The notes under the pieces are model-generated. The model searched no databases, was not told the DNA's origin, and saw only the letters and a list, made by a program, of their open reading frames with translations. This document shows positions 3,947-36,139 of a DNA stretch of 64,000 nucleotides, in pieces. Position 1 is the first letter of the stretch, and each line of letters opens with the position of its first letter. A program made the position numbers and the translations under genes. Origin of the DNA: Desulfobacter sp. (GTDB taxonomy: Bacteria > Desulfobacterota > Desulfobacteria > Desulfobacterales > Desulfobacteraceae); the NCBI GenBank assembly GCA_028768545.1, contig CP054838.1:1357501-1421500 (forward strand), read 5' to 3'.

Positions 3947-4335
3947 TTATCGGCATTGCTATACCATGAGAAAATCCGTGAGAATTTAAACCCCATTGTC
4001 CTCTATTTTACCTTCCGCCCCAATGCAGACAACTATCTTAGGGGATTTTTTCATTCAGATTCCATTGTTAAAACAGGTAAAACCCCCCACACGAATTTTT
4101 CCCATTATTCAGGCATGGACAGTCTTTTAGACGATGCAAAAAGCGATATTGATCCACGGCGGCAGGTGCTGCTCTGGGAGCAGGCCCAGATCAAGCTGCT
4201 CAGCCAGGCCCTTGTATTTCCGCTCTTTAATATTAGGCAATGCACCGTCAGAAGGGATTATGTGAATTACGGCCATGTTCTCCACTTTTCTTTGTCAGAT
4301 TATCCCCAGTTCAATGAAACCACCTGTTTGATTCA

Positions 4336-6193: not shown

Positions 6194-6305
6194 GGCATCA
6201 CCTTGAAACAAGTCGGGTTGTAAAAAAATATATCCGGGCTAGGCCCTCATAGACGGCGGGTTTGTCTGGTGCATGGCAGAACCGGTATCAGGCCCTGCAT
6301 TGGTA

Positions 6306-9628: not shown

Positions 9629-9953
9629 AAATGTTGTCGCTTTTGAAAGCTGAAATTCGTAAATGAAAATATTAAGAATGAATTTAACAATTCATGGGCA
9701 AAATTGTCAATGTATAATCCTTGGGACGGATTTCAGGGCTTTTGTCCATGCCGGGTTGTATTTGATTTCGTCAAAGAGTAAACCTTGGGATAAGGCCCCC
9801 AGAAAAACAGGTTTAATTGTGGCTTGCATTTTTATCGCGACCCTATACAATGGCCGTTCTAATTTAATGGCAAGGCTGAAAATGACCGGGTGAACTCTTT
9901 TACTTCAGTAAAAGGCCTGCAAGATCAAAAAAAACAGCAAGAGGATAGTTTGA
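9629..9953. other. Divergent intergenic region, 325 bp
   Basis: It lies between the divergent histidine kinase and binding-protein genes and must hold both promoters. It is AT-rich near the kinase. The one structure I see is CTTTTACT (9897-9904), a 2-base loop and AGTAAAAG (9907-9914), 40 bases before the binding-protein ATG, which could be an operator or a leader hairpin. No small ORF with a good ribosome site was found. Confidence 0.5.
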
Positions 9954-10955
9954 ATGAAAAAAATACTGATTTTAATTGTGGCGGTCCTGGTGGGTACCTT
10001 TTCTTTAGCCTAGGCTGAAAAAGATGTATTCATCGGTATTTCAAAATTGATGACCCACCCGGACCTGGATGCACTTGAGCAGGGGATCCAGGACGGGGTG
10101 AAGGAAGGCTTGCCCAATGCCGGGTTTGACCTGCAGAATGCCAAAGCCGACAGGTCTGCCGCCAATTCCATTGCCCGGAAATTTGTGGTTGAAAAGGTGG
10201 ATATTGCCGTGGGGATCACCGCCATGGCAGCCCAGTCCCTGGCCTGGAACATTGAGGACCGGCCCGTGCTCTTTTGTGCCGTCATGGACCCCAAGAAGGC
10301 AGGTCTTGCGAAATCCGCCACTCTTTTAAAATCCTTAAAACATGTTGAAAAATGGGTGACCGGCACCTCAAATATGCCCCCGGTCAAAGCGCAGATCATG
10401 CTTTTGCATCGGATCAAGCCTTTGAAAACCCTGGGTCATGTTTATTGTTCCCATGAGGCTGATGCCGCTGCCCAGGCCGAGGTTGCCAAGGAGGTCTGCA
10501 AGGCCCTGGGTATTAAATTTGTGGCAGCCACGCTGACCGGCCCCGACCCATCCAAGGTAAAGTCGGCGGTTCAGACCATTGCCCCCAAGGTAGACGGGAT
10601 ATACGTGAGCGCAGATTTTACCGTTTTCACGGCCCTGGCCGACGTGACCTCGGTTGCCATGGCCCATAAGATTCCGGTGATCTCCTCGGACCCAGGTTCT
10701 GCCGACACCACCGACGTACTGGCGGCCTGTGGATTAGACTATTACAAGATGGGCAGGGTAACCGGCAGGCTGGCCGTCGATGTGATCAAGGGTGCCAAAC
10801 CCGCAGACATTCCCACCCGGTACATCACCGATCCCAGAGATTTAAACCTGTTTTTCAATATGGATGTGGCCAAGAAACTTGACCTGACCCTTCCAGAAGA
10901 CCTTGTTTCCATGGCAAACAAGATCATCAAAGACGGCAAACTCAGCTCAAAATAA
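9954..10955 (+). pseudogene. ABC transporter substrate-binding protein with in-frame TAG at codon 20
   Basis: Read through one TAG (10011-10013), the frame encodes a complete periplasmic binding protein of the ABC_sub_bind (TrpX-like) family: leader MKKILILIVAVLVGTFSLA, the TAG, then AEKDVFIGISKLMTHPDLDALEQG and a full-length body to TAA. The ATG at 9954 has GAGGATAG upstream. The TAG falls at the middle of an A-x-A signal-peptidase site; CAG (Gln) to TAG is the simplest origin. Restart at TTG 10047 would give a protein with no leader. The usual permease and ATPase genes do not follow, because the cas locus begins at once. It is either a nonsense pseudogene or a gene whose TAG is decoded; the rest is unspoiled. 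Confidence 0.8.
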
Positions 10956-11251
10956 AAGTCATGGGGCACTGGTTTCCCCATGGGAATCTCTGCTCCTTTT
11001 TTTGCTCCAATATGTTCGATTCTCTTTTTCCAATTGGAACCCAAAAAATAAAACCTCAGGCTGTCTGTTTCAGGATTGATTTCATCTGATAATCTTTGCC
11101 TGAGAAGGGTCCATTGCGCAGGATCAACATTGCATTCAAAAATTGAGAATTGAACTCTTTGCCCGTAATCTTTGCAGGCTTTGGCAACCCTTCGAAGTCT
11201 TTTATGGCCGTTTTTATTTATTGAAACATCGTAGCTGACAAGAACCATCAT
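10742..11251 (-). CDS. cas2: Cas2, type I-C, with abnormal 3' end
   Basis: Residues 1-85 are a normal type I-C Cas2 (MMVLVSYDVS, VAKACKDYGQRVQFSIFEC, LRFYFLGSNWKKRIEHIGAKK), the small partner of Cas1 in spacer acquisition. It has a good Shine-Dalgarno (GGAGG). After about 10996 nothing resembles Cas2: the frame runs on through the hairpin and then antisense to the neighbouring binding-protein gene, for 169 residues instead of about 96. Leader and repeats, which normally follow cas2, are missing; only about 40 bases lie between the Cas2-like part and the other gene. A deletion of the cas2 tail plus array fits best. A one-base slip in the A7 run at about 10997 would instead end it near residue 100. 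Confidence 0.75.
   Translation of the reverse strand: MMVLVSYDVSINKNGHKRLRRVAKACKDYGQRVQFSIFECNVDPAQWTLLRQRLSDEINPETDSLRFYFLGSNWKKRIEHIGAKKGAEIPMGKPVPHDFYFELSLPSLMILFAMETRSSGRVRSSFLATSILKNRFKSLGSVMYRVGMSAGLAPLITSTASLPVTLPIL
10960..10982 (+). terminator. Hairpin after the binding-protein gene
   Basis: A perfect 7-bp stem CATGGGG / CCCCATG with a 9-base loop lies 4 bases after the stop codon. A T run follows only after about 15 bases, so it may be a weak terminator or a 3' stabiliser. The antisense strand is read as the abnormal tail of cas2. Confidence 0.5.
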
Positions 11252-22071: not shown

Positions 22072-23368
22072 CAGTAGTGTCCGGTTAGGTTGTTGCATAT
22101 AAAAAGCATCTAAAATCATTGAAAAAACAGTCTGTTTTGTGTTGACAAATGTGCGTAAAAATTTTTGTGCGCCTTGAAAATTTAACTCAAGGAGCTCAAA
22201 TGACGCACATCTCAGTCCCTAAAAAACAACTACGGTCCCTGAACTTTGACAATTTCAGGTGCCCTCTGATAAAGTCACTTTCAAAAGCACCGGAATTACA
22301 ATCTCGAGGAGACCGCCCTTTAAAAATGACATTCGAAGACCAGATAAATGCTTTGGTTTATTTCCATCTTCAGGAGCACAAGTCTGCCCGACATTTAATT
22401 CAGGATCTCAAGGAGAATGTTTTTGCTAAAGAAAATATTGCGCCAGACGGTGGTATCAGCCGTAGTAGTTTCTGTGAAGCCATCAATCACAGGGGACTCT
22501 ATCTTTGAGGATCTTTATAAACAGGCTCTTGAGTGTCATCCGGGTGAACACGCCGAGTTAGGAGAGTTGGTTTCCATTGACGGTAGTCTCATAAATGCAG
22601 TCCTTTCAATGCACTGGGCGAACTACAGAAAAGGAAGTAAAAAAGCCAAAGTACATTGCGGATTTGACATTAATCACGGAATCCCAAACAAAATCTTTTT
22701 GACTGAAGGCAACGGCGCTGAACGCACCTTTGTTCCCAAAATACTTTCCAAGGGGCAAACAGGTGTTATGGATCGTGGATATCAATCCCATAAAGAATTT
22801 GACCTGCTTCAGGAGCAAGGCAAACATTTTGTCTGCCGTATAAAAACCAGGACAACAAGAACAATTATTGATAACCACGAGACCCCTTCCGACAGCTACA
22901 TTTTTTATGATGCACTGGTTAAACTTGGTACTCCGAATCAAAACCAGACGAAAAGGCCTGTTCGGGTTGTTGGCTATAAAATTGCTGGCGTCAAATACTA
23001 TGTGGCAACTGACAGGCATGATTTAACAGCGGAACAAATAGCAACAATTTATAAACTCCAGTGGACCATTGAGGATTTTTTCAAATGGTGGAAAGAACAT
23101 CTGAAGGTATATCATCTCATTGCCCGCAGTGAATACGGCCTTATGGTTCAGATTCTTGGCGGCCTTATCACTTACCTGTTACTGGCAATCCATTGCCAAA
23201 AACAGTTTAATGAAAAGGTCACGATCAAAAGAGTTCGGCAGCTGCGAACCGCCATTCTAAATGACCTGTTTGGGTGCGAGGAGCAGGGCTCTCATAGTTC
23301 AAACAGGGACAATATTGTCAAAGATCAAAAAATTATTGAGCAAGCAAAAACCTAACCGGACATCACTG
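22072..23368 (+). mobile_element. IS4-family element, copy 2, 1297 bp, 14 bp shorter
   Basis: Same terminal repeats as copies 1, 3 and 4, with the target duplication ATAAAGGGT at 22063-22071 and 23369-23377. A 14-base deletion after 22499 makes it shorter than the 1311-bp norm. It lies between the WYL regulator and cas3. Confidence 0.97.
22200..23355 (+). pseudogene. IS4-family transposase (copy 2), frameshifted by a 14-bp deletion
   Basis: Relative to the other copies, 14 bases starting gaacaactgc are missing after NHRGL, so the frame ends a few codons later (near 22508) while the rest of the transposase continues in another frame to 23355. DDE residues lie beyond the shift. It also has LQWTIED in place of LRWTIED, which replaces the Arg of the YREK signature. 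Not self-mobile, but the ends are intact and could be moved by another copy. Confidence 0.93.
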
Positions 23369-23578: not shown

Positions 23579-24567
23579 TCATGTATTTATCATAAATTTT
23601 AACTCATCCTTAATCTCCATCCTTAAATCTTCTGGTTCCAATACCCTTGCCTCCTTACCAAAAGACATGACCCAGCGTTTGACATCCCTGCGGCCCGAGA
23701 TGGTCATGGACAAGGTAAGAGAGCCGTCTGAATGGTTTTGGATCTGCTGGTCGGCGGCCCAGGATTTTTCTTTGATGTACGGGGCCTCATTTGGGGAGAA
23801 ACGGATTTTTACCCTGACAGGATCGCCATGGGTCAGGTTGAAAGCGGAGTTCAGGACGGCTTGAGGGTCAAAGTGATTTGGGTAATTTACGTTGCGTTTG
23901 AGACGCTGGATGGTTTTGATCCGTTCAACCGCATAGGTTCTGATTTCACGGGTTTGCATTTTCAATGCAAAGAGATACAGCCCGCCGTTGTTTTCGTAAA
24001 AGTGAAGGGGGCCGATTTCCACATTTTCAATCGTGTCCTTGTAAAACGCGTGGTATTTGATCTGGCAGGAGGTTCGGTTGAGTATGGACTCTGTGAGTTT
24101 TCCAATGGTTTTTTCATGGCCGGCATATGTTTTGGATCCAATGGTTTTTGAAATGAAAATTTGTTTGAGCCCGGCAAGCTCATTTTGTGTTTTTTCAGGA
24201 ACAAAATGCATGAGTTTGGCAAGCCCGTTTTTAATGTGAGAATGGATTTTTGTTTCCCTGAATATGGCGGTTTCGCCGGAGGCATGCAAAGAGAAATGAT
24301 TTCCGGGATGGTCAGGGTGATTTTCGGCAGATCAATATTGGGCATGCGGACAAGATAGGCAGGTTCGATATGCCAGTATTTTTCCCGTTCAAAGAGGGGG
24401 CGTTCATCGTAAATGGGGATACCGATTTCTTCGAGGGCCTGGATGCTTTTGGATACCGAGCGGATGGAGATGTCCAGTTTGGATGCCATCTCCTTTTTTG
24501 TGGCCCCTTGGGATTTGGATAAAAGGGTGAGGGTCTGGATAAACTGAACGAGGTTTTTTCCTCTCAT
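23579..24567 (-). pseudogene. WYL-domain transcriptional regulator, frameshifted
   Basis: The N-terminal part from 24567 (MRGKNLVQFIQTLTLLSKSQ, Shine-Dalgarno GGAGG) is a winged-helix domain (KKEMASKLDISIRSVSKSIQALE); the C-terminal part holds the WYL domain (NRTSCQIKYHAFYKDTIENVEIGPLHFYENNGGLYLFAL) and a WCX tail (VKRWVMSFGKEARVLEPEDL). The frames break near 24287-24291, where one more T (coding strand) after LTIPEIISL would rejoin them to ASGETAIFRE. Such regulators often sit next to CRISPR-Cas loci and control them. Real decay or a sequence error cannot be told apart. Confidence 0.82.
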
Positions 24568-24594
24568 GATCGTCCTCCATAGATTATATTTGCT

Positions 24595-24623
24595 CTTATA
24601 GTAAATAAGCAAGGGGGTTGCAA
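24595..24623 (-). promoter_or_regulatory. Probable promoter of the WYL regulator gene
   Basis: On the minus strand TTGCAA (24623-24618), a 17-base spacer and TATAAG (24600-24595) form a good sigma-70 type promoter about 28 bases before the WYL start codon. Confidence 0.55.
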
Positions 24624-24778
24624 TCAGGGAAAGTATTTAGTTTTGAGGGAAAAATTAATTAAAGAAAAGGGGGATTATGGTGCGGTATCCTTAATAAGGG
24701 GGCTGCCCCGGAGGCCTCTGGCTCTTGTATGGGCAGTGCCCCCCTGTCATAGGGGGCAATACGCCCCCCGGTCCGGGA

Positions 24779-25447
24779 TTATTTTTCCCCGTATTCAGCC
24801 AGGTATGACTCAATTTTTGTTTTCATCTTGTCGTCCAGAACGATTTGGCCGTTGATTTCACGGTTGTGAAGAAACTCGATGATTTCAGAGATGGTGACAA
24901 TGGCGAAAATGGGAATGCCCAGGGTATCAGCCACTTCTTTTAGGGCATTTTTTTCGGTTTTGCCCCGTTCCTGGCGGTTGACGCTGATAACGATGCCTGT
25001 AACTTTTGGATTGTCACAGGTTTTCAGGATTTCCAGAGACTCTCTGATGGCCTTGCCCGAGGTGATCACATCATCCACCAGGATGAGCCGGGTTGACGCG
25101 TTCAGGGGCATGCCCACCACAGCGCTTTTGTCTGCATAGGTTTTGGCCTCTTTACGGTTAAACACATAGCCCTTGTCAATGCCCTGGTCGGCCAGGGCGG
25201 CGGCAGCGGTGATGCACAAAGGAATGCCCTTGTAGGCCGGCCCGTATATCCCGTCAAAATCGTCCTTAAAATGCGCCTGAATGGCCCGGGCATAATAGGT
25301 GCCCAGTTTCTGGATTTTGGCGCCGGTGTCAAACATGCCGGTGTTGATAAAATAGGGAGCGATTCTCCCGCTTTTCAATTCAAACTCCCCGAATCTCAAT
25401 GCCTTGCACTGGACCAGAAATTCGATAAACTCTTGTTTGTAACCCAT
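24779..25447 (-). CDS. pyrE: Orotate phosphoribosyltransferase
   Basis: PyrE converts orotate and PRPP to OMP in pyrimidine synthesis. The start MGYKQEFIEF at 25447 has AGGAAAG upstream; the longer frame to 25504 overlaps pyrK and lacks a site. The PRPP-binding motif is LILVDDVITSGKAIRESLE, and the flexible-loop part is NRKEAKTYADKS. 222 aa, normal. It follows pyrK at a 41-base gap, so pyrD-pyrK-pyrE are likely one operon. Confidence 0.95.
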   Translation of the reverse strand: MGYKQEFIEFLVQCKALRFGEFELKSGRIAPYFINTGMFDTGAKIQKLGTYYARAIQAHFKDDFDGIYGPAYKGIPLCITAAAALADQGIDKGYVFNRKEAKTYADKSAVVGMPLNASTRLILVDDVITSGKAIRESLEILKTCDNPKVTGIVISVNRQERGKTEKNALKEVADTLGIPIFAIVTISEIIEFLHNREINGQIVLDDKMKTKIESYLAEYGEK

Positions 25448-25488
25448 AAATATCTTTCCTGTTTTTTTGTCTCCGGCATTTGCCGGGA

Positions 25489-26304
25489 TTATTGGCATCT
25501 CCATGATGCGTATTGGTCAATGGCCACGGGCTGCCCTGATTTTAGCAAGGCCTTGGAGTTGAAATCTTCCATGGTCCTTAAGATTTTGGAGCCAAACACC
25601 GGGCCGTCCTTGCACACCACCTGGCTGCCGCAGACACAGGCCCCGCAGACCCCGAACCCGCACCGCATATACCGCTCCAAAGAGATCTGGCAGGGGATCG
25701 CATGGGCTTCACAGATTTTAAACACCCTTGCCATCATGATTTCAGGGCCGCAGGCATAGACCATGTCCAGACCTTGTTTTTTTAATCGGTCTTCCAGAAT
25801 TTCCGTGACAAATCCTTTGTGCCCCCGGGACCCGTCATCCGTGCATAGGTTTCGATGGGTTGCAAACCGGTCCGGGTAGAGGAGAAACTCTTTGGACCTT
25901 GCCCCGTGGATAAAAAAGATATCTTTGTCTTCCAAGGCTTCAAGCCGGTCCACAAGCGGGGCCAGAGGCGCCATGCCGCATCCCCCTGCCACAACCCCGA
26001 TATTGGATTTAGGGCTGATCTTGAACCCATTGCCAAAAGGCCCCCTGATGCCGATTTGGTCTCCTTTTTCCAGGGCAACGGCTCGTTTTGAAAACCGGCC
26101 CTTGGCCTCAACGGTAATGGCAAATTGGGTTGGCCTGTGAAGGGAGATGGTATAGGGCTTTTCATCCAGACCCGGAATCCAGACCATGAGGAACTGGCCT
26201 GGCTTAAATTTAATGGAAAGGTCAAAATAAAGGCTGGCAAAGGAGGGAGAATGGACCTGTTTTCGGGCCACCCTTACCATCACGGGTCGCTGGTCTGTAA
26301 TCAT
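25489..26304 (-). CDS. pyrK: Dihydroorotate dehydrogenase electron-transfer subunit
   Basis: PyrK passes electrons from class 1B dihydroorotate dehydrogenase to NAD+ through FAD and a 2Fe-2S cluster. The 271-aa protein has FAD-binding PYTISLHRP, the NAD-binding GVVAGGCGMAPLAPLVDRL and the C-terminal cluster CGFGVCGACVCG with a last Cys in VVCKDGPVF. It overlaps pyrD by ATGA, which fits the PyrD-PyrK heterotetramer. Confidence 0.95.
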   Translation of the reverse strand: MITDQRPVMVRVARKQVHSPSFASLYFDLSIKFKPGQFLMVWIPGLDEKPYTISLHRPTQFAITVEAKGRFSKRAVALEKGDQIGIRGPFGNGFKISPKSNIGVVAGGCGMAPLAPLVDRLEALEDKDIFFIHGARSKEFLLYPDRFATHRNLCTDDGSRGHKGFVTEILEDRLKKQGLDMVYACGPEIMMARVFKICEAHAIPCQISLERYMRCGFGVCGACVCGSQVVCKDGPVFGSKILRTMEDFNSKALLKSGQPVAIDQYASWRCQ

Positions 26305-27233
26305 TTTTCCCCCTTTGGGTTCACAGGTTTTTGTTTTCCATGGGCAATGCCGATGATCTGGTCAATGGAGGTGGCATGGGTTTTCAGCCAGTCGTCAATT
26401 TCCTGGTTGACCCTGTTGAATACATTGATTCCTCGGTACCGGACGGCCGTGCCCATGCCCACAAGGCTGGCCCCTGCCATGATGATTTCCACGGCATCGG
26501 CGCCGGTGGTGATCCCCCCAAGGCCGATGATGGGGATGGAGACCTGTTCATAGATATCATAGACACAGCGCACGGCAATGGGCCGGATCATGGGGCCGGA
26601 CAGTCCCCCTTTTTTAAAGGCCAGCACCGGCTGTTGGGATTCAATGTCAATGACCATGCCCGGTCCTGCCGTGTTAATGGCGCAGATGGCGTCGGCTCCG
26701 GCCTCTTCACAGGCCTTTGCAATGGTGCCGATGTCAGGCGCTGCCGGGGTGAGCTTGGCAATTACAGGGATATCGGTCACCTTTTTTACGGCAGAGACCA
26801 CGGCAAATGAAGATTCCGGGTTGACCCCGAAGATCATGCCGTGGCTCTCTGAATTGGGGCAGGAGATATTCAGTTCAATAAACTCAGGGCCCTTGGCCGC
26901 CACAAACTGCGCCACCCGGGCAAACTCTTCCACAGATCCGCCGTAAATGCTGGCATTAACGGGAAATTTTCGGTTTTCAAGATCCTGCCATTCCTCTTCC
27001 ATGTTGAGATAGCCGGGCGTGTGCAGGCCCACGGCATTGATCATGCCCTCTCCCAGGTCAATGACCGTGGGATTGTGATGGCCGTCCCTGGGCTCAGGGC
27101 CGATGGACTTCATGGTGGGCAGGCCGCACCCGTTCGCCCAGACCCGTTCCAGAATGGCCTTATTGTTGCCAAGAACCCCCGAGGCAAGTACCAGGGGGGT
27201 TCTTAGGGATGTTCCCAGAAATTCAATCTGCAT
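26301..27233 (-). CDS. pyrD: Dihydroorotate dehydrogenase, class 1B catalytic subunit
   Basis: This FMN enzyme oxidises dihydroorotate to orotate in the cytoplasm. Start at MQIEFLGTSLRTP (27233), with AAGAGGAT upstream; the 14 extra residues of the longer frame look non-coding. The class 1 active-site loop has the catalytic Cys in ELNISCPNSESHG, and the FMN site is at PIIGLGGITTGADAVEIIMAGA. 310 aa, a normal length. The 4-base overlap with pyrK marks class 1B. Confidence 0.95.
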   Translation of the reverse strand: MQIEFLGTSLRTPLVLASGVLGNNKAILERVWANGCGLPTMKSIGPEPRDGHHNPTVIDLGEGMINAVGLHTPGYLNMEEEWQDLENRKFPVNASIYGGSVEEFARVAQFVAAKGPEFIELNISCPNSESHGMIFGVNPESSFAVVSAVKKVTDIPVIAKLTPAAPDIGTIAKACEEAGADAICAINTAGPGMVIDIESQQPVLAFKKGGLSGPMIRPIAVRCVYDIYEQVSIPIIGLGGITTGADAVEIIMAGASLVGMGTAVRYRGINVFNRVNQEIDDWLKTHATSIDQIIGIAHGKQKPVNPKGEK

Positions 27234-27306
27234 ATTATTTTTATCCTCTTGTAAAATCGAGGGTTTGTCTATCATGAACCCGAGGGTTTGACAAGGCAGA
27301 GCAATC

Positions 27307-28512
27307 CTAAAATTTATCGTAAAAGATCATATCATCTTCTATGCCCATCTCGTAGAGGCCGCTGATAATGGCATCGATCATGGGCGGAGGCCCGCAAAGA
27401 TAGTATTCGATTTCTGCAGGATCCTCGTGGCTGCAAAGGTATTCATCGCAAAGATGGGTATGGATAAAGCCTTGAAGCCCGGTCCAATGATCCTCTTTTT
27501 CAGGGGAGGACAGGGCCACATGATAGGAAAAATTTTTGTATCTTGCTTCAAGATCCTTGAAATCCTCGTCATAAAACATCTCTCGTTTGGATCTGGCCCC
27601 GTACCAGAATGAAATTTTCCGGCCCGAGTCAATCCCGTCCAGCTGGTGAAGGATGTGGGACCGCAGGGGGGCCATGCCGGCACCGCCCCCGATAAAGCAC
27701 ATCTCCCTGTCCGTGTTTCTGGCCATGAAGTCCCCGTAGGGTCCTGAAATGGTGACAGGGTCACCCGGTTTAAGGCCGAAGACATAGGAAGAGCCGAATC
27801 CCGGGGGGATCCCTGCCGTGCCCGGGGGCGGGGTGGCAATGCGGACGTTGAGCATGAGGATCTCATTGTCATGGGGGGGATTGGCCAGAGAATAGGCCCT
27901 GAAGCCGGGCTTTATCCCCTTGGAGGTCAGTTCGAGCAGGTTGTATTTTTTCCACTCGCTTACATACTGGCTCTGGATATGAAAGTCCTGGAAGTTGAGA
28001 TCATACTCGGGCACATCTATCTGGATATAAGCGCCTGCCTCAAAATCAATGGGTTCCACAGGTTTGAGCACCAGTTCCTTGATAAAGGTGGCCACATTTT
28101 CATTGGAGACCACCTGGGCCTCAACTTTTTTGATGCCGAAAATGGATTCAGGCACGTCAATGTTCAGGTCTTCCTTGATTTTAAGCTGGCAGGAAAGCCG
28201 CTTGCCCGCAAGTTTGTCCTTCCGGCTCAAATGGGCAAGTTCCGTGGGTAGAATACTGCCTCCACCCTCGGTGACTGTGCATTTGCACATGCCGCAGGAC
28301 CCGGAGCCCCCGCAGGCCGAGGGCAGAAAAATTTCGTTGGCAGACAGGGCGGACAGCAGGCTGGGGGTGCCGGCCACGGTGATGTCTTTGTCTTTATTGA
28401 TGGTCACCTTATGCTCTCCCTGGGTGGTGACTTTGGCTTCCACAAAAAGCAAAACCATGACCAGAATGCCGATGACCGCGGTAAAGACCAGTATGCTGAT
28501 AAAATAAATCAA
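27307..28512 (-). CDS. nqrF: Na+-NQR subunit F (NADH dehydrogenase subunit)
   Basis: NqrF takes electrons from NADH and feeds them into the Na+-pumping NADH:quinone oxidoreductase. The 401-aa protein has one N-terminal membrane helix, a 2Fe-2S ferredoxin domain (CGGSGSCGMCKC plus a later Cys in RLSCQLK), an FAD domain (FRAYSLANPP) and an NADH domain (CFIGGGAGMAPLRSH, YLCGPPPMID). The start is TTG with AGGAGG upstream. It is the last gene of the nqrABCDEF operon, 9 bases after nqrE. Confidence 0.96.
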   Translation of the reverse strand: MIYFISILVFTAVIGILVMVLLFVEAKVTTQGEHKVTINKDKDITVAGTPSLLSALSANEIFLPSACGGSGSCGMCKCTVTEGGGSILPTELAHLSRKDKLAGKRLSCQLKIKEDLNIDVPESIFGIKKVEAQVVSNENVATFIKELVLKPVEPIDFEAGAYIQIDVPEYDLNFQDFHIQSQYVSEWKKYNLLELTSKGIKPGFRAYSLANPPHDNEILMLNVRIATPPPGTAGIPPGFGSSYVFGLKPGDPVTISGPYGDFMARNTDREMCFIGGGAGMAPLRSHILHQLDGIDSGRKISFWYGARSKREMFYDEDFKDLEARYKNFSYHVALSSPEKEDHWTGLQGFIHTHLCDEYLCSHEDPAEIEYYLCGPPPMIDAIISGLYEMGIEDDMIFYDKF

Positions 28513-28521
28513 GGTTGCCTC

Positions 28522-29130
28522 CTAGAGGGTAATGCCTGAAAACATCATGAATGTCATGGCCATGAGCCCTGCAATGATCATGGTGATCCCAAAGCCGTCA
28601 AGGCCTTTGGGCACATCCGAATACCGTGTTTTTTTCCGGATGCTGGCCATGGAGACAATGGCCAGCATCCAGCCGGTGCCCGACCCTGCCCCGAAGACAA
28701 TGGATTCAACAAAGGTGTAGTTTCGTTCCACCATGAAAAGCGAGGTTCCCAGAATGGCGCAGTTCACGGCAATCAAAGGTAAAAACACCCCCAGGGCTGC
28801 GTAGAGCATGGGCGAATACCGGTCAATGACCATTTCCACGGCCTGGACCATGGCGGCGATCACCGCAATAAAGGTGATAAATTTTAAAAAGCTGAGGTCC
28901 AGGTCTGGAAAACCTAACCAGGACAGGGCCCCGGGTGCCAGAAGCCCGTGGTAGATCAGCCAGTTGACAGGGCTGGTCACCGTGAGGACAAAGATAACGG
29001 CAAAGCCTAAGCCCGTAGCGGTTTCCACATTTTTGGACACCGCAATAAACGAGCACATCCCCAGGAAATAGGCCAAAAGGATATTGCCGATGAAAACCGA
29101 ATTGATAAAAAGGCTGAGAAGATCGCCCAT
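28522..29130 (-). CDS. nqrE: Na+-NQR subunit E
   Basis: Integral membrane subunit of six helices. It contributes a Cys to the intramembrane iron site with Nqr[16 protein letters not shown] near residue 25 and [10 protein letters not shown] near residue 113 are the conserved half-repeats. 202 aa, a normal length. ATG with AGGAG upstream, 2 bases after nqrD. Confidence 0.95.
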
Positions 29131-29132
29131 GG

Positions 29133-29768
29133 TTAACTCCTTTTTTCGCTTGAAATACCGGGAAGGGAATTTTTCAGCCAGACCAGCAGGCCGATGATGA
29201 AAAAGGCGCCCGGCGCAAGGACCATCAGCCCCATGTTTTGGAATCCTAAATCATAGATAAATTGGGGGATGATTGGCAGACCGAAAAATTTGCCCGATCC
29301 GAGCAGTTCCCGGACAAAGGCGACCAGCACCAGGACAAGACCGTAGCCAAGTCCGTTGGCAATGCCGTCCACAAAGGAATCAATGGGGTCATTGGCCAGG
29401 GCAAAGGCCTCTGCACGGCCCAGGACAATGCAGTTGGTAATGATCAGGCCCACAAATATGGACAGCTGTTTGGAGATGTCATAGAAAAAGGCCTTGAGCA
29501 CCTCGTCCGTGACGATGACCAGAGAGGCGATCACGGCCAGTTCCACAATGATCCGTATGTTGGAAGGGATATGCTTGCGCATTAAAGAGATGGACAAAGA
29601 AGAAAAGGCGGTGACCACGGTGAGGGCCACGGCCATGACAATGGCTGTGGACATTTTTACCGTGACGGCCAGGGCAGAGCAGATCCCCAGGACCTGGTAG
29701 GCCACGGGGTTTTCCTTCCATATCCCCTTGATCAGTATTTCCTGGTATTCTGTTTTGGATTTGAACAT
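29133..29768 (-). CDS. nqrD: Na+-NQR subunit D
   Basis: Membrane subunit homologous to NqrE. It has [14 protein letters not shown] near residue 27 and [13 protein letters not shown] near residue 113, whose cysteines bind the intramembrane iron centre together with those of NqrE. 211 aa, six predicted helices, no defect seen. It lies 9 bases after nqrC and 2 before nqrE. Confidence 0.95.
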
Positions 29769-29777
29769 GACACCCCT

Positions 29778-30518
29778 TTATTTTTTTTGAGTCTTTAATT
29801 CTTTTTGGCGGAAGGTCACAGAGACGCCCTCATATTTGATCAGGGTATCTTTGATTCCCTGGGAGAGGTATTTGCCTGTGAGGGTGGCACCGGAGATGCC
29901 GTCCACAAAGTGATCCTGCTCGGTTTGGGGCAGATCCTGGGTCTTGCCCTTGGCAATGGACACGGAGACGAACTTATTTTGGGAGTTGAGAATTTTTTTG
30001 CCTTTAAAGTTTTTCTTGAACCAGGCCGCTTCAATTTCTCCGCCTAACCCCGGGGTCTCCGAATGGCTGAACACGGAAAATCCCGACACGGTCTGACCGT
30101 CGTTTTCAAAGGCCAGGTAGCCTCTGATTTTTCCCCACAGCCCCCGGGTGTTCACCGGCAGGATATACCCTGTGATATTTTCTTTCATGGTCGTCTGGAC
30201 ATCCTCTTTTTGGGGTCCAAGGATAAAGTAAAGGTGCATGGCCCCGGGGATTTCGGTTTGAATCACCTTGCCCTGTGGGTCCACGATTTTTTCCTGGATA
30301 CGGGTTTCGTAGATGGCGTTGACCAGGTCTTTGTCAGGTTTGTCCCCCGGTGCCACGAGTCCTGCCGCAGAGAGCAGGTTGATTTTTTTATCCAGGGCAA
30401 TGTTTTCCTGTTGAAACCCTTTAAGGCCTGTGGCGGCTGCCGTGATCAGCAGGCTGCAGACCAGGGAGAGGCCTGCGGCAAAAAGGATCACATTTTTGCG
30501 GCTGTTTTTATCAGACAT
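29778..30518 (-). CDS. nqrC: Na+-NQR subunit C (covalent FMN)
   Basis: NqrC carries an FMN bound by a phosphodiester to Thr in the periplasmic domain. The site reads DGISGATLTGKYLSQG near residue 210, matching the S-x-A-T flavinylation motif. One membrane anchor (about 9-30) leads into the soluble domain. 246 aa. The gene overlaps nqrB by 8 bases. The flavin transferase ApbE is not in the window. Confidence 0.95.
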   Translation of the reverse strand: MSDKNSRKNVILFAAGLSLVCSLLITAAATGLKGFQQENIALDKKINLLSAAGLVAPGDKPDKDLVNAIYETRIQEKIVDPQGKVIQTEIPGAMHLYFILGPQKEDVQTTMKENITGYILPVNTRGLWGKIRGYLAFENDGQTVSGFSVFSHSETPGLGGEIEAAWFKKNFKGKKILNSQNKFVSVSIAKGKTQDLPQTEQDHFVDGISGATLTGKYLSQGIKDTLIKYEGVSVTFRQKELKTQKK

Positions 30519-31674
30519 TGGGTATCCTCCTGGCAGACCGGAATTTTACCACCAGATGGTCGAGTAAGGGTGAAAAGACATTCATGAACAAAATGGCCAG
30601 CATCACCCCTTCCATAAAGGCCGGGTTCACCACTCGGATGATCACGGTGAGAAATCCGATCAAGAGTCCGAAAATCCACCGGCCCGGATTTGTGCCCGGT
30701 GCAGAAACAGGGTCTGTGGCCATAAAAGAGATGCCGAATAAAAATCCGCCGGCGCAAAGATGATACAGAGGACCTGCATTGGCCCAGCTCTCTTGGCCCC
30801 CGGGGATGAGATATACGAGCAGGGCGGTGATCACAAGCCCTGCAATCCCGCCCAGGATGATCCTGAAATTGGCAATCCGTGTGACCATGAGAAAGGCAGC
30901 ACCGATCAGGCAGCACAGGGCTGAGGTCTCTCCCACACTGCCCGGGATCAGGCCGATAAAGAGCCGGGTCAAAGAAAATCCTGCCTCGGACAGGGCAGAC
31001 CCGATGGCCTGGCCTTCAAACCCGGTTACGGCGAGGGCGGTGGCTCCGGATATGCCGTCCACAAGATCTTTGCCTGCAATCCAGATGTCTCCGGACATGG
31101 ACACGGGATAGGAAAAAAAGATAAAGGCCCGGGCGGTCAGGGCCGGGTTTAAAATGTTTCTGCCCGTGCCGCCGAACACCTCCTTGCCCATGACCACACC
31201 GAATGAGATCCCCAGGGCCACCTGCCAGAGGGGGATGGTCGGGGGCAGGCTCAGGGGAAATAACAGTCCTGTGACCAGAAATCCTTCTGAAATTTTATGA
31301 CGGCGAACCACGGCAAAGAGAAACTCCCATAAAAATCCCACCCCGTAGGATACCAGGATCATGGGCACCACATAAAAGGCACCTGTTGTGAATTCCTGGA
31401 CCAGGGTATAGGATTCCCCCGTAGCCAGGCCTGCCTGAAATCCGGTGTTGAATATGCCGAAAAAAGTGACCGGTACGAGGGCCAGGATCACCATGCTCAT
31501 ATAGCGCTTTAAGTCCAGATGGTCCCGGACAAAGGGCATGAACATGTTTTTGGGGGAGGGCAGAAAGAAAAAGGTTTTGGTGGCATCCCAGATGGGTTCA
31601 TATTTTTTGTATTTTCCCTCTCCGGTAAACAAGGGCTTTGTCTGGTCAAAGATGTTTTTTAGTGGATTTTTCAT
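30511..31674 (-). CDS. nqrB: Na+-NQR subunit B (covalent FMN, membrane)
   Basis: NqrB is the large membrane subunit for quinone reduction and Na+ transport. Start MKNPLKNIFDQTKP at 31674, overlapping the nqrA stop by ATGA; the longer frame is antisense noise. The flavinylation site is DGISGATALAVTG, and the conserved GTGRNILNPALTARAFIFFSYP patch is present in two runs. 387 aa, about ten helices. No defect seen. Confidence 0.95.
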   Translation of the reverse strand: MKNPLKNIFDQTKPLFTGEGKYKKYEPIWDATKTFFFLPSPKNMFMPFVRDHLDLKRYMSMVILALVPVTFFGIFNTGFQAGLATGESYTLVQEFTTGAFYVVPMILVSYGVGFLWEFLFAVVRRHKISEGFLVTGLLFPLSLPPTIPLWQVALGISFGVVMGKEVFGGTGRNILNPALTARAFIFFSYPVSMSGDIWIAGKDLVDGISGATALAVTGFEGQAIGSALSEAGFSLTRLFIGLIPGSVGETSALCCLIGAAFLMVTRIANFRIILGGIAGLVITALLVYLIPGGQESWANAGPLYHLCAGGFLFGISFMATDPVSAPGTNPGRWIFGLLIGFLTVIIRVVNPAFMEGVMLAILFMNVFSPLLDHLVVKFRSARRIPNV

Positions 31675-33011
31675 GCTTTGTCCTTGTAGTGGGCATCCAT
31701 GCCGTTTGCCAGGATTTTGGCCAGTTCTATTTTCGAGGGGCAGGCAAAGGAGCAGAGCCCGCACTGGCAGCAGTCCAGCAGCCCCATGCCCAAGGCCTCT
31801 TCAATTTCGTCCGCTTCAAGGGCCTTCATGATAAAACTGGGCATGAGATTGTTGGGACAGATTCGTTCGCAATAGGAGCAGTTGATGCAGGCGCGAACCT
31901 CCCCGTGAAGGGTGGCGTCCATGGTAACAGGGGTTTTAAACACAGAAGACAAAAAAGAGCTGGAAAGCGTTGCCTTGTTTCTGCCCGGCCGTAGAAATCC
32001 AAACATCTCCTCCTGCTCGGCGGCCTCAATGATATTGACGGTGTTTTCAAAAAATCCCAAATGGGACTGGGGACTCAGCAGCCTGCCGTTAAAGCGCCCG
32101 GTGGTCATGATGTTGTCCGAAGTCACCTTTCCGGTAAGAGCGTCAAGGGGCACCCCCTGGCGGGTTTTTAAATGGGGCCGCCGGTCCTTGCCCCGGGTCA
32201 GGGTGACAATCTTTTCAATGGGATATTGTCCGGTGAGGATAAATTTTCCCATCATGATCAAATGGTCAAGGCTGATGCACCAGGAAAGGTTTTGGGCTTC
32301 ATTTTCCTTAAGGGCGAAAAGTACTGCCCCGGGGTTCCAGGCAGGATATGTGTCAGCCACTTGGTGGGTGATCTGGCTCTCAATGCTCGGATCCAGCCGG
32401 TCAGGACCTGCAAGACAGCTTTGCCTGGCCGTAATCACGATGTTGTGGGAAAAGCGTTTCAGGGCGGCAATGCCTGTTTCAAAGGCGCTCACATTGTTTT
32501 CAAGGACCCGGCCCGGATGGGGGGAAAAAAGGTCATTCCCGTTCAGGGAAACAATGATCATGGCCGGGGTGTGGTCCGGGTCTGCCGTGTCCATGGCCGG
32601 GAACTGGCGAAGGCCCTGCCAGAGACCGCCTTGCTTGAGGCGGTCGGCTATTTCTGATTTGGGCAGGTCTGCAAGTGTTTTAGTCCCGATCGGGTCAAAT
32701 TGGAAAAACTCATCCTTTTTTTCAGCCAGGATAATGACTTCTTCCAATCGCCTTCGTTCTCCATACAAGATTTTTTCCACCCTGCCTGTGGCAGGAGAAA
32801 GATAGTTGGTGGACAGGTCACGTTTGTCTGTGAACACCGGAGAGCCCGTCTGCACCCAATCCCCCTCTTTGACCAGGAGTTTGGGGCGGATAAAGGGAAT
32901 TCCTTTTGCAGAACACCCGATTGTACGGGGAAAAGGAATCTGGATCATGGTCAGATCCGGACTTCCGTCTAATTTGGGTGTGAATCCCCTGGGAATTTTG
33001 ATTTTTTCCAT
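31671..33011 (-). CDS. nqrA: Na+-NQR subunit A, with two RnfC-like 4Fe-4S motifs
   Basis: Start MEKIKIPRGFTPKLDG at 33011; the 446-aa protein matches NqrA/RnfC throughout (barrel-sandwich, SLBB and C-terminal helical domain). Unusually, the C terminus keeps two complete cluster motifs of the pattern C-x2-C-x2-C-x3-C-P: CINCSYCERICP from residue 375 and CCQCGLCSFACP from residue 414. Vibrio-type NqrA has lost these, while RnfC has both. The operon is plainly nqr (nqrB, nqrC, nqrF follow), not rnf, so this may be an NqrA that still binds Fe-S clusters. First gene of the operon. Confidence 0.93.
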   Translation of the reverse strand: MEKIKIPRGFTPKLDGSPDLTMIQIPFPRTIGCSAKGIPFIRPKLLVKEGDWVQTGSPVFTDKRDLSTNYLSPATGRVEKILYGERRRLEEVIILAEKKDEFFQFDPIGTKTLADLPKSEIADRLKQGGLWQGLRQFPAMDTADPDHTPAMIIVSLNGNDLFSPHPGRVLENNVSAFETGIAALKRFSHNIVITARQSCLAGPDRLDPSIESQITHQVADTYPAWNPGAVLFALKENEAQNLSWCISLDHLIMMGKFILTGQYPIEKIVTLTRGKDRRPHLKTRQGVPLDALTGKVTSDNIMTTGRFNGRLLSPQSHLGFFENTVNIIEAAEQEEMFGFLRPGRNKATLSSSFLSSVFKTPVTMDATLHGEVRACINCSYCERICPNNLMPSFIMKALEADEIEEALGMGLLDCCQCGLCSFACPSKIELAKILANGMDAHYKDKA

Positions 33012-33482
33012 CGGTTCAATTCCATTTTTATCAATGATATGATGTGCTGAACGATATTTTAACTGCATCTCCCGTTTAACCAGAGGTATCTTATCAAATC
33101 CTGCTGTAATTTCAAGTCTGCAAAACAGAAGAACAGGGCAGAATTGAATCCGGCCCGTTGATCCCAAATCCGCTTATGGTTATGCCTGACCTGTATTTTG
33201 TTTCGGCACGGTTTTGTCACAATTCAGCGGGTTTGATCTTTTAGTCCAAATTTTTGTCCGCCATTGGGGGGCATGTGCCGCAGTGGGAATGGAACAAGGC
33301 AACCAGGACGGGGGGACCTTGAACACCAAATCAGGATCATGCCAATTGGAGATGACAAAGGCGAAATAATTATTGTATACTTTGGCCTGATTTTTTTGAT
33401 TATTCAAACAAGGCCGAAAAAGGAGGGGATAAACCCTGGCTCGGTATTCAGGTCGCGCATTATGACGGGAAGAAATAAAAAT
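33012..33482. other. Divergent intergenic region, 471 bp
   Basis: It lies between nqrA and the glycosyltransferase gene and must hold the nqr operon promoter. Short frames exist on both strands but lack ribosome sites and coding character. No convincing hairpin, tRNA or riboswitch was seen. Confidence 0.5.
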
Positions 33483-34154
33483 ATGTCACTTCAAAAAAAT
33501 AAAGAGATTTTACTCATCTTTGTTCGCGCTCCTGAGCGTGGCCGGGTCAAGACCCGTCTGGCAAAGGCGGTGGGCGATGAAAAAGCCCTGGCCCTGTATA
33601 AACAATTTTCAAAGGCAAGCCTTGATGCAGCCCACGCCTGGGCTGAACAGGGGTCAACAGCTTCGGGTCAGGCCCTAAGGCAGGTCTGGATCTGCTTTTA
33701 CCCCCAAGAAAAGTTGGATCTTGTAACAGAGTGGCTGGGCCGGGATCATATTTTTTGGGCCCAGTCCGGAGCCGGCTTGGGAGAGCGCATGGCCGGGGCC
33801 ATGGCCGCTGCCTTTGACCAGAATGCCGTGCGGGTGGCGCTCCTGGGTACGGATATCCCTCAGATTCGCCAGGCCCATCTGGGCCGCGCCTTTGAATGCC
33901 TGGGGTCAAAGGATGTGGTCCTGGGCCCGAGTCTGGACGGGGGGTATTGGCTCATCGGCGCCCGCTGGGACAGGTTTTCTCCCCGGTTGTTTGAAGATAT
34001 TGAATGGGGCGGCGATTCTGTGTTTTCCGCCACCATTGACCGATGCCGGGAAAATCATCTGACCTGTGCCCGGCTTGACCTGCTTCGGGATGTGGATACC
34101 CTGGCGGACCTTGAGGCCATTGAAAACAAAAAGACTGGCAAGGCTCGTATTTAA
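33483..34154 (+). CDS. TIGR04282-type glycosyltransferase (rSAM/selenodomain-associated transferase 1)
   Basis: 223 aa, DUF2064/CofC-like nucleotidyl or glycosyl transferase fold: LLIFVRAPERGRVKTRLAKAVGDEKAL is the characteristic N terminus (K-T-R-L motif), then LLGTDIPQI and VLGPSLDGGYWLIG for the sugar-nucleotide site. The family is usually found with its partner TIGR04283 and a radical SAM/Cys-rich enzyme, in arsenosugar-like small-molecule pathways. Here the partner is the next, convergent gene; the radical SAM enzyme is not in the window. Start at 33483 follows GGGAAGAAAT. Confidence 0.8.
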   Translation: MSLQKNKEILLIFVRAPERGRVKTRLAKAVGDEKALALYKQFSKASLDAAHAWAEQGSTASGQALRQVWICFYPQEKLDLVTEWLGRDHIFWAQSGAGLGERMAGAMAAAFDQNAVRVALLGTDIPQIRQAHLGRAFECLGSKDVVLGPSLDGGYWLIGARWDRFSPRLFEDIEWGGDSVFSATIDRCRENHLTCARLDLLRDVDTLADLEAIENKKTGKARI

Positions 34155-34175
34155 ATTCGTTCTGGATCTGGGCGG

Positions 34176-34892
34176 TCATGAATAATACCATTTTTCAAGT
34201 TTCCACGGCGATACCCCCATTGCGTATAAAAAGATAAACCCCCAGTTTTTAAGGGTGGTGGAAATAATACCCCGGGTTTCCCAGCGCCGGGCTGAGGTGA
34301 GAATGGTTTGGCCCGGGAAAAAGGGGGGTATCCTTTTTTTTTTCACAGCAGCCATCAATCCCACATCTTCCATCAGGGGCAGGTCCGGGAATCCGCCCAC
34401 CCTGTTAAACAGGTCTTTTGAAATAAAGATACCCTGGTCTCCGTATGGTATCCGGGTGAGCCTGGATCTCAAGGAGGCGGTTCGTTCAATGATCCTGAAC
34501 ACAGGTTTGGGAGAGTCTATGGCCAGGTCAAAGGCTCCGCAGAACAGGGGGCCAGAGGTTTGCCGGCCAAAGATCATTTGGTCCATGCCGGCCTGGCTTG
34601 GCCGGGTGTCGGCGTGGAGAAATAAAAAAAGATCTCCTGTTGCGGCCCTGGCCCCTGCATTCATCTGAATTCCCCGCCCCCGGGCAGATGCAATCATGCG
34701 GATGCCCGGATCGGGCATCCAATGATGAGCCTCAGGAGCAGTCCTGAGAAAGGAAAGGGTGGATGCTTTTTTTTCCCCGTCGACCACAAGGATTTCAAAG
34801 GGAACCAAAAGGCGAATGTCTGCCAGAGCCTTGAGGGTCTGGACAAGGGAGATTGTTTCCTTGTACACTGGAATGATGATTGAAATTTTCAT
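34176..34892 (-). CDS. TIGR04283-type family 2 glycosyltransferase (rSAM/selenodomain-associated transferase 2)
   Basis: 238 aa. GT-A fold: MKISIIIPVYKETISL, ILVVDGEKKAST (DG for the nucleotide), GRGIQMNAGARAATGDLFLFLHADTRP with the metal-binding DxD-like HAD, and GDQGIFISKDLFNRVGGFPDLPLMEDV. It is the standard partner of the convergent gene 21 bases away. Substrate unknown; arsenosugar or lipid glycosylation has been suggested for the family. The longer start at 34907 is possible. Confidence 0.8.
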   Translation of the reverse strand: MKISIIIPVYKETISLVQTLKALADIRLLVPFEILVVDGEKKASTLSFLRTAPEAHHWMPDPGIRMIASARGRGIQMNAGARAATGDLFLFLHADTRPSQAGMDQMIFGRQTSGPLFCGAFDLAIDSPKPVFRIIERTASLRSRLTRIPYGDQGIFISKDLFNRVGGFPDLPLMEDVGLMAAVKKKRIPPFFPGQTILTSARRWETRGIISTTLKNWGFIFLYAMGVSPWKLEKWYYS

Positions 34893-35146
34893 GATCTTTT
34901 TTACCATGGTATTTTAGAAAAACACAAACTTTGGAAATTGTTTGCACCCATACCTTTCATTATGGGCTTTGAATTTTAAGCCTATTCAGGGCGGGGTGAA
35001 AACAAGGGTCCAACCAGGCAATTTCCCGCGTTATTATGGGGCTTCGCCCTGGGGAATCAGTGTTTTGGGCTTGATTTTCTTTTGAGGAAGGAATAAATGA
35101 AAGATTTATATTTGTAATTGACAAGGGAAAAGGAAAGATAAAAAGA

Positions 35147-35530
35147 ATGGATATAAACGCGTTGGACCGTATCATTACCCAGGAGTTTTTAGACCGTCTC
35201 TTACCACCGGAAAAAAGCGACCAGTTTTTTGAGGCCCTTTACGGTGACGCCTCTGAAGGGGCCTATGATATACGGCTGGAGCCTGTATCTGTTTCTCAAG
35301 ACCGAATTGTTCTATCCTTTAATCTGACCCAGCGTCCGGGCAAGTGTTTGGTCTGTAGCCTGACCTATGGTCTGCCCACGGTGTTTTCCCGCCATCCGCT
35401 GATCAATATCAAGGGCATGGTGGCTCAGATGGAAGAGGCAGGGATCAGGATTAAAAAATGGCAGTTAGGGGATACCGAAGAAAATTCTGCCGCCCTTCAT
35501 ATCATTCCTTTGTTTATGGATCTTGCCTGA
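35147..35530 (+). CDS. Hypothetical protein, 127 aa
   Basis: I do not recognise the family. It starts MDINALDRIITQEFLDRLLP with GGAAAGAT upstream and codes for a compact, soluble protein with one paired cysteine (KCLVCSLTYGLP near residue 70). Composition and codon use match the neighbours, and a clean bidirectional terminator follows, so it is likely a true single-gene unit. Confidence 0.65.
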   Translation: MDINALDRIITQEFLDRLLPPEKSDQFFEALYGDASEGAYDIRLEPVSVSQDRIVLSFNLTQRPGKCLVCSLTYGLPTVFSRHPLINIKGMVAQMEEAGIRIKKWQLGDTEENSAALHIIPLFMDLA

Positions 35531-35550
35531 TCGTTGCTGGGCTGGAATAA

Positions 35551-35581
35551 AAAGGCCGGGTGCTTGACGCATCCGGCCTTT
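35551..35581. terminator. Bidirectional terminator
   Basis: AAAGGCCGGGTGC and GCATCCGGCCTTT pair over 13 positions (one G-T) around TTGAC, with A and T runs on both sides. It serves the hypothetical gene (+) and the cyclophilin gene (-). Confidence 0.88.
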
Positions 35582-35608
35582 AATATTTTATCCCATGTTT
35601 TGTAGGTC

Positions 35609-36139
35609 TTATGCTTTGGGAAGCTTGGGAAAGGATTTGTTGAGTTTTTTATTCCAGTCATCCAGTTTGGCCTTTACCCGTTTAAAAAGCGCACCTGAAT
35701 TTCCCTGGATGGCGATGCTGTCAATGGTATCGCCCTGGGCAATGCTGTCCACAATTTTCTGGTCATCTGCGGACTCAACCTCTCCGAATACGGTGTGCAT
35801 CCCGTCCAGGTGAGGGGTGGGGCCATGGGTGATGAAAAACTGGCTGCCGTTTGTTCCCGGGCCTGCATTGGCCATGGAAAGGATTCCGGGTTTGTCATGC
35901 TTAAGGTCTTTTTTAAACTCATCCTCAAATTCATACCCCGGGCCGCCCATGCCGTTGCCGTAAGGGCAGCCGCCCTGGATCATGAAATCCGGGATAACCC
36001 GATGAAATTTTAGCCCGTTATAGTATTCGCGTTTGGCCAGGTTTGCAAAGTTGCCCACGGTAAAGGGGGTCTTGTCTGCAAAGAGTTTAATGCGGATGGT
36101 CCCTTTTGAGGTCTCCATGATTGCTGTCAAGTCTGCCAT
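35609..36139 (-). CDS. Cyclophilin-type peptidyl-prolyl isomerase
   Basis: The 176-aa cytoplasmic cyclophilin (no leader) starts [20 protein letters not shown], with AAGGAGAAAAC upstream. Core motifs: [13 protein letters not shown] with the catalytic Arg, [24 protein letters not shown] in two runs. The usual Trp/His of the cyclosporin site is His (PHLDG), as in many bacterial forms. A C-terminal basic tail follows ([18 protein letters not shown]). Intact. Confidence 0.93.

Follow-up and report, generated by a model that had tools for sequence, protein, structure and literature searches.

A complete nqr operon headed by an NqrA with two 4Fe-4S motifs

The window analysed here, a stretch of 64,000 nucleotides from Desulfobacter sp., carries on its minus strand a complete nqrABCDEF operon for the Na+-pumping NADH:quinone oxidoreductase (Nqr). 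Its first gene, nqrA (31671..33011, minus strand; ATG start at 33011, stop at 31671), was read as an open reading frame of 446 aa, identified with Pfam and NCBIfam profiles and assigned to its clade by trees. It shares an ATGA overlap with nqrB (30511..31674; 387 aa), whose product retains an N-terminal extension and most quinone-pocket residues. Downstream on the same strand lie nqrC (29778..30518), nqrD (29133..29768), nqrE (28522..29130) and nqrF (27307..28512), the last encoding the FAD, 2Fe-2S and NADH module. Genes nqrB to nqrF all score above the curated NCBIfam cut-offs, which bears out the original prediction of a clear nqr operon; no rnfB was found among the six genes, the sixth being nqrF.

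Two motifs of the form C-x2-C-x2-C-x3-CP begin at residues 375 and 414 of NqrA. The first, CINCSYCERICP, occupies residues 375-386 (31854..31889, minus strand) and the second, CCQCGLCSFACP, residues 414-425 (31737..31772, minus strand); both were recognised by motif reading and by alignment to RnfC, and the step from one to the other is 39 residues, the same as in RnfC. Residues 375-425 correspond exactly to 31889-31737, the span in which complete motifs had been predicted, and direct reading confirms them together with Pfam, which reports a 4Fe-4S dicluster domain at the C-terminus (Fer4_7, E=1.3e-6, 29.2 bits against a cut-off of 27; in the same region Fer4_17, 27.8 bits against 22.2). The protein also matches NQRA_N (PF05896, 62.4 bits) and NQRA_2nd (PF24836, 70.1 bits; cut-off 25 for both). 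The NqrA models cover its whole length at scores under their curated cut-offs (404.6 of 450 bits for NF003761, 228.6 of 321.05 bits for TIGR01936), and for this reason we class it as an NqrA variant. A query stripped of the eight Cys scored 24.0 bits lower against NF003761, 9.6 lower against TIGR01936 and 44.6 lower against the rnfC model, a drop which suggests, indirectly, that certain NF003761 seed sequences carry the Cys. Structure prediction from a three-row alignment gave a pLDDT of 44.0 for the whole of NqrA and 52.5 for its last 85 residues; because these values are too low for use, both predictions were discarded, and the fold of NqrA and the distance from cluster to riboflavin are taken from Rnf.

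In this A subunit the FMN/NAD motifs of RnfC are lost, and the ferredoxin domain with the ligands for two [4Fe-4S] clusters is kept. We refer to cluster-bearing NqrA, with its eight Cys, as 8C and to cluster-less NqrA as 0C. In the alignment the protein resembles canonical NqrA throughout, but RnfC in the ferredoxin domain. With the NqrA of V. cholerae (PDB 8a1u, 7xk3; 149 bits over residues 7-441) and of Bacteroidota it has in common the place in the operon, the domains, the NqrB-anchoring loop and the absence of the FMN motif; characterised NqrA is described as having no redox cofactor (PMC12174285, PMC11889175), whereas the window's NqrA keeps both four-Cys sets intact and does not reach the NCBIfam cut-offs. 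With RnfC (PDB 7zc6, 8ahx, 9eri) it has in common the eight-Cys ferredoxin domain with the same spacing, and the best match for residues 372-444 is RnfC 7zc6. RnfC, however, has an FMN and an NAD site, and 8C NqrA is without GxGGAxFPTHVK, NGAECEPYLTxDxR and ExNKP, single residues aside; the 8C operon, moreover, has nqrF where the rnf operon has rnfB.

These differences can be counted. The three FMN/NAD motifs contain 8, 9 and 3 residues that do not vary among seven RnfC; the mean number of these kept is 0.18, 1.64 and 0.09 in 33 8C rows (maximum 1, 3 and 1), 0.06, 1.12 and 0 in 16 0C rows, and 2, 3 and 0 in the two rows of f58, a form described below. Pfam does not find the Complex1_51K domain in the window's NqrA, whereas the RnfC that this genome encodes scores 171 bits for it. 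The NqrA-specific loop, at about residues 335-374 (EMFGFLRPG...FLS...HGEVRA; 31890..32009, minus strand, by alignment), is mostly missing from RnfC. It is the counterpart of loop 330-379 of V. cholerae NqrA, which is intertwined with the N-terminus of NqrB and anchors NqrA (PMC9325719). The loop residues P342, G343, S355 and G370 are present in 32-33 of the 33 8C proteins, in 10-15 of the 16 0C proteins and in both f58 proteins, and the same positions are gaps in 7/7, 7/7, 7/7 and 6/7 RnfC.

The double motif is the usual form in the order

Among close genomes, NF003761 at E<=0.001 finds a match in 20 of 21, many of the matched rows being RnfC; 15 of the 21 encode a complete NqrA that bears the double motif, and one (G014) a complete NqrA without it. 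Across a sample of the phylum, NqrA-like matches at E<=1e-30 were found in 17 of 395 genomes. Nine of these genomes have the double motif, both f58 genomes being among them as well as G097, which lies outside the order; six are without it, one (G394) has a fragment, and one (G379) has an NqrA-NqrB fusion without the double motif, read as a single frame of 771 aa (L135, 4320-6635). Order-wide, an NqrA match at E<=1e-25 is present in 207 of 389 genomes, and the NF003761 cut-off is passed in 12 of 389. The NCBIfam cut-offs (TIGR01936, NF003761) miss most of the 8C branch, and since most 8C genes lie under them, annotation may under-report these genes.

The original prediction had proposed scanning the NqrA of Desulfobacterota for the eight Cys. 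Among the matches listed for the order, 144 of 150 NqrA (148 genomes) carry both motifs with RnfC spacing; the six motif-less ones are those of G014, G483 and G580, one copy in G529 and two in G586. The cluster-bearing form is the usual NqrA of its order, not a one-off; among cultured strains, Desulfospira joergensenii DSM 10085 encodes it (L039). One 8C and one 0C nqrA occur together in G529 (L086, L087), a hint that the two kinds have different tasks; this genome is a draft, 85% complete and with 3% contamination.

The eight Cys are invariant in the alignment, in 33/33 8C NqrA, 7/7 RnfC, 5/5 short RnfC2 and 2/2 f58 proteins, two partial NqrA (L139, L032) having been left out of the row counts. 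Their invariance throughout the clade, with the count for the order, argues that the double motif is not a product of chance. In the 16 0C NqrA only the last two of the eight positions remain Cys (in 13 of 16), the first four being mostly replaced by Met/Ile, Ile/Ser, Tyr and Met and the next two by Leu and Leu. Both motifs are present in 86/86 distinct 8C-like NqrA and in 0/19 0C-like ones, a comparison that is partly circular because the ferredoxin domain contributes to the score used for sorting. Outside the 8C clade, f58 aside, the eight Cys are absent from 19/19 distinct NqrA and from two further ones, and they are absent from the NqrA of V. cholerae, for which a structure is solved. Well-studied NqrA is without the clusters, as had been claimed, and the motif did not turn out to be ordinary in characterised NqrA.

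Phyla beyond Desulfobacterota were covered through records of a plasmid collection and solved structures only. Twelve of 55 matching plasmid records were examined, comprising eight NqrA and four RnfC; the double motif is in none of the eight NqrA (three from Bacteroidota, five from Pseudomonadota) and in all four RnfC. Scans with the single protein matched two loci in a genome contig collection and none in a viral contig collection. Very divergent NqrA are encoded by L045 (a plasmid of Paracoccus aminophilus) and L046 (Shinella), with a short NqrB relative without the quinone-pocket residues.

Trees place the protein inside NqrA

The main tree (63 proteins, 380 columns, ferredoxin domain left out) recovers 8C (33 rows) at 100/99, 0C (16 rows) at 95/91 and the two together at 100/100, with RnfC, f58 and short RnfC all outside NqrA. 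Alignment with both families and placement in a tree, the checks that had been suggested, agree on the NqrA lineage: the gene belongs with NqrA and is no RnfC. That it might be an RnfC sitting in an nqr-like operon is a reading to which we attach next to no probability: its C-terminal 60-70 residues do match rnfC models (TIGR01945, 72.8 bits), but the NqrA models match the whole length (404.6 and 228.6 bits), the NqrA loop is present, the FMN motifs are absent, and the tree places the protein inside NqrA at 100/100. We consider it highly improbable, too, that NqrA first lost its clusters and then regained the ferredoxin domain by recombination with an RnfC of a sulfate reducer. RnfC with similar domains do occur in the same genomes (two rnf loci in G000), yet in a tree of the ferredoxin domain (80 columns, which is few) 8C joins 0C NqrA (97/93), with f58 next (97/82), and stays apart from the RnfC found in these genomes; the identical 8C/0C split is seen in the remainder of the protein and in NqrB+D+E. 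The ferredoxin-domain tree does not recover 8C as a single clade, 0C standing beside the window's group with weak support (92/61). Mean pairwise identity inside the 8C clade is 61% in the ferredoxin part versus 42% in the rest, which argues against a relic.

A tree of NqrB+D+E with Rnf as outgroup gives Rnf, then f58, then 0C (SH-aLRT 93) and 8C (97); it was built with a quick method, and its Rnf part brings long branches together. When f58 is the sole outgroup, the 8C/0C split is kept, at 97/90 for 8C and 96/90 for 0C in NqrB+D+E and at 95 and 88 in the A subunit (quick method). The NqrA stem is long (1.75 in the main tree), so placing the root carries risk. With the deepest NqrA split falling between 8C and 0C, one loss suffices for the pattern, and the trees are consistent with the clusters being the older state and having been lost a single time. 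The original prediction of an intermediate form stands as far as an NqrA with kept clusters is concerned; however, 8C is common in the order and stands in the trees as sister to canonical NqrA, and f58 is the better intermediate.

A second type of Rnf in Desulfobacterota has a short RnfC that, like 8C NqrA, keeps the eight Cys and is without the FMN motif (5/5). It differs from 8C NqrA in that the NqrA loop is absent and the motif spacing is 40, not 39, and it groups with Rnf in the NqrB+D+E tree, where long branches meet. From its description we take this short RnfC to be of the Desulfobacula toluolica type. That second Rnf type is described in PMC5109826. The window's own genome encodes a second Rnf with a short RnfC, without the FMN motif and with the eight Cys kept (L123, 7684-8955).

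An earlier form and the order of losses

The f58 form consists of two genomes, G063 and G099, whose A subunit of 488-494 residues has a core of RnfC length and combines the RnfC N-terminal domain with the NqrA loop, the eight Cys and degraded FMN motifs (GSTGIPS or GPSGIPS). Its NuoF-like FMN domain (Complex1_51K) is weak but recognisable, at 51.3 and 37.0 bits in the two proteins (cut-off 31.2; 171 in a true RnfC), and NqrA domains exceed their cut-offs (NQRA_2nd, 27.0 against 25 in G063; NQRA_SLBB, 29.5 against 27 in G099). Against the RnfC model the two proteins score 221.2 and 236.1, just under the cut-off of 245.95, and against the NqrA model 97.0 and 114.4, far under the cut-off of 321.05. 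G099 has a full A-B-C-D-E-nqrF operon (L122, 2140-7618; nqrF at 311 bits, cut-off 295), and in G063 the contig stops after D (L121, 935-2401). The operon of L122 is flanked by two cytochrome-like proteins with several CxxCH motifs, noted by eye.

In both the main and the NqrB+D+E trees f58 branches off ahead of every other Nqr examined, and it is an apparent link between RnfC and NqrA. Because the G099 operon ends in nqrF while its A subunit has RnfC length, nqrF and the NqrA loop would predate the shortening of the core; because the RnfC FMN motifs are gone in 8C with the cluster ligands intact, FMN would have been lost before the clusters. Judged by sequence, the losses that turned an Rnf into an Nqr probably began with the FMN motifs, degraded in f58, and continued with the shortening of the core and then, in one branch only, with the clusters. 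Reyes-Prieto et al. (2014) state that the cysteines were lost in NqrA, regard the alignment of NqrA with RnfC as too unreliable for a tree, and propose that the loss of the NAD, FMN and cluster sites was a consequence of the loss of RnfB (PMC4014512).

The rest of the complex and its surroundings

Genes nqrB to nqrF are present in 28 of the 30 8C loci fetched with flanks. In L090 (G556, 3260-11220), GMT-wHTH and DUF5131 proteins separate nqrC and nqrD, and E and F were not found in the stretch; in L093 (G463, 1974-4462), the 8C nqrA stands with nqrB alone. The Cys motifs of NqrD occur in 30/30 and 28/30 8C operons by pattern, both misses also reading TNC, those of NqrE in 28/28 and 28/28, and the 2Fe-2S, FAD and NAD motifs of NqrF in 27/27. 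The flavin-Thr motif is found in 80/81 NqrB and, by strict pattern, in 26/30 NqrC, three of the misses being SGASLT. By these motifs the rest of the 8C Nqr complex looks canonical. A search of the genome gave one ApbE match (296.6 bits) and no NqrM match, the control searches being equally silent.

The quinone pocket of 8C NqrB keeps G140, E144 and E157 in 85/85 proteins and K54 in 84/85, and the N-terminal arm is kept as well. RnfD has Ala or Cys at 140 (14/14) and Ile or Leu at 157 (14/14), and 0C NqrB, degenerate ones included, retain G140 in 16/21 and E157 in 18/21. Position 141, where V. cholerae has Gly, holds Phe in 72, Leu in 10, Tyr in 2 and Ser in 1 of the 85 8C proteins. According to Hau et al. 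(2023), any residue other than Gly at 141 would block quinone, and Phe141 would collide with ubiquinone in its V. cholerae pose (PMC10643135). The Nqr of Prevotella bryantii, however, has Leu at 141 and reduces menaquinone, which is modelled in another pose (PMC10739449). We read the 8C pocket as probably of a menaquinone type, not as a lost pocket. The idea that Phe141 blocks quinone and pushes electrons into NqrA was dropped in view of Leu141 in Prevotella and of bulky residues in some 0C NqrB.

No conserved partner gene was found beside more than 7 of the 30 8C operons, many of the flanks being just 1-3 kb long. In 7 of 30 loci nqrA has a divergently oriented citrate synthase gene, or a truncated part of that gene's cluster, as its neighbour (L089, L092, L099, L104, L113, L115, L131; PF00285, 425.8 bits in L113, the single member checked with Pfam), and a ferredoxin-thioredoxin reductase beta-type gene is convergent with nqrF in 5 of 30 (L097, L098, L100, L113, L115; PF02943, 72.7 bits in L100, likewise the single member checked). 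In the window, nqrF is followed on the minus strand by pyrD, pyrK (which has a DHODB Fe-S domain) and pyrE (24779-27275), in an order that recurs in L119 (G759), and a DDE-type transposase gene lies at 22417-23355 on the plus strand (PF01609, 80.2 bits). An Rfam scan of 24000-36000 of the window found no RNA elements. Promoter-like consensus matches on both strands numbered 11 against 7.3 expected, and terminator-like ones 26 against 12.5 expected; neither count is used as evidence.

A possible redox port in NqrA

Taken as a whole, the reading that the clusters are bound, receive electrons from the riboflavin of NqrB and act as a redox port to the cytoplasm, and that this arrangement is ancestral to Nqr, seems to us about evenly poised between right and wrong. 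NqrA would bind two [4Fe-4S] clusters. Electrons would pass from NADH through the FAD and 2Fe-2S of NqrF, the 2Fe-2S of NqrD/E, the FMN of NqrC and the FMN of NqrB to the riboflavin of NqrB. From there two routes would be open, one to menaquinone within NqrB and one, known from Rnf, to both clusters of NqrA. In Rnf the riboflavin donates to the RnfC-2 cluster over 11.7 A, followed by RnfC-1 and FMN (PMC9588780). Since the NqrA loop and the N-terminal arm of NqrB are kept, the clusters of 8C NqrA would sit beside the riboflavin. With FMN absent, the wire of clusters would end at the former FMN/NAD cleft on the cytoplasm side, where a soluble one-electron carrier, a ferredoxin-like or flavodoxin-like protein, could dock. 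The port would sit downstream of the pumping steps, so electrons leaving there would still have driven Na+ pumping; electrons taken in through the port and passed out to quinone would bypass the pump. Ancestral Nqr would have had the port, and one of its two main branches would have lost it. To our knowledge, the cluster-less branch holds every characterised Nqr enzyme.

Against a port speak the intact quinone pocket of NqrB, given which quinone may be the sole acceptor, and the lack of a neighbour gene beside more than 7 of the 30 loci, with their short flanks. Canonical NqrA, too, shows that a ferredoxin domain can be kept purely for architecture. These points lend themselves to other readings. 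Redox-active clusters might serve as a reservoir, holding an electron by the riboflavin for the two-electron reduction of menaquinone without a long-lived semiquinone and with no outside partner. We consider this unlikely. The pocket residues G140, E144 and E157 are kept (85/85), unlike in RnfD, the bulky residue at 141 resembles the Leu of the menaquinone-using Prevotella bryantii (PMC10739449), and the absence of a widely conserved partner gene among the 30 loci with short flanks fits as well; but P. bryantii reduces menaquinone and the Bacteroidota NqrA examined are cluster-less, so a buffer is not needed for menaquinone, and Phe141 would clash with the V. cholerae ubiquinone pose (PMC10643135). 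Slightly less likely still, in our estimate, is a structural role, in which bound clusters shape the C-terminal domain of NqrA and carry no electrons in turnover. The 0C domain, with its outline and DILP-type segment kept without ligands, points to a mainly architectural role there, and a widely conserved partner gene is again absent among the 30 loci; yet the ligand sets are complete in 33/33 diverse rows and in 144/150 NqrA listed for the order although the 0C fold does without them, and the clusters of the homologous Rnf carry electrons (PMC9588780).

The redox port leads to a more specific proposal, which we put forward tentatively and with more doubt than confidence: 8C Nqr might be a Na+ pump with two outlets, menaquinone and, through the clusters of NqrA, a soluble cytoplasmic carrier. 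Nqr would have started out in this state, and the enzyme of pathogens, which serves quinone only, would be a reduced descendant.

Implications for Nqr and for sulfate reducers

In the open PMC literature, searched by titles, abstracts and passages, we found no description of a cluster-bearing NqrA. Schemes for sulfate reducers present Nqr as a plain NADH:quinone pump (PMC2702500). The Nqr of Desulfotignum is called identical with that of Vibrio in a passage that credits a relative with genes under the trusted cut-off only (PMC4046663); the low scores of 8C proteins against the NCBI models could explain misses of this kind.

A branch of NqrA with intact ligands provides a concrete test of what the subunit is for, and the NqrA of 8C and f58 put the losses between Rnf and Nqr in sequence. 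If the pump does have two outlets, a single pump in sulfate reducers would link NADH with the quinone pool and with a pool of ferredoxin-like carriers, and models of their electron flow would change.
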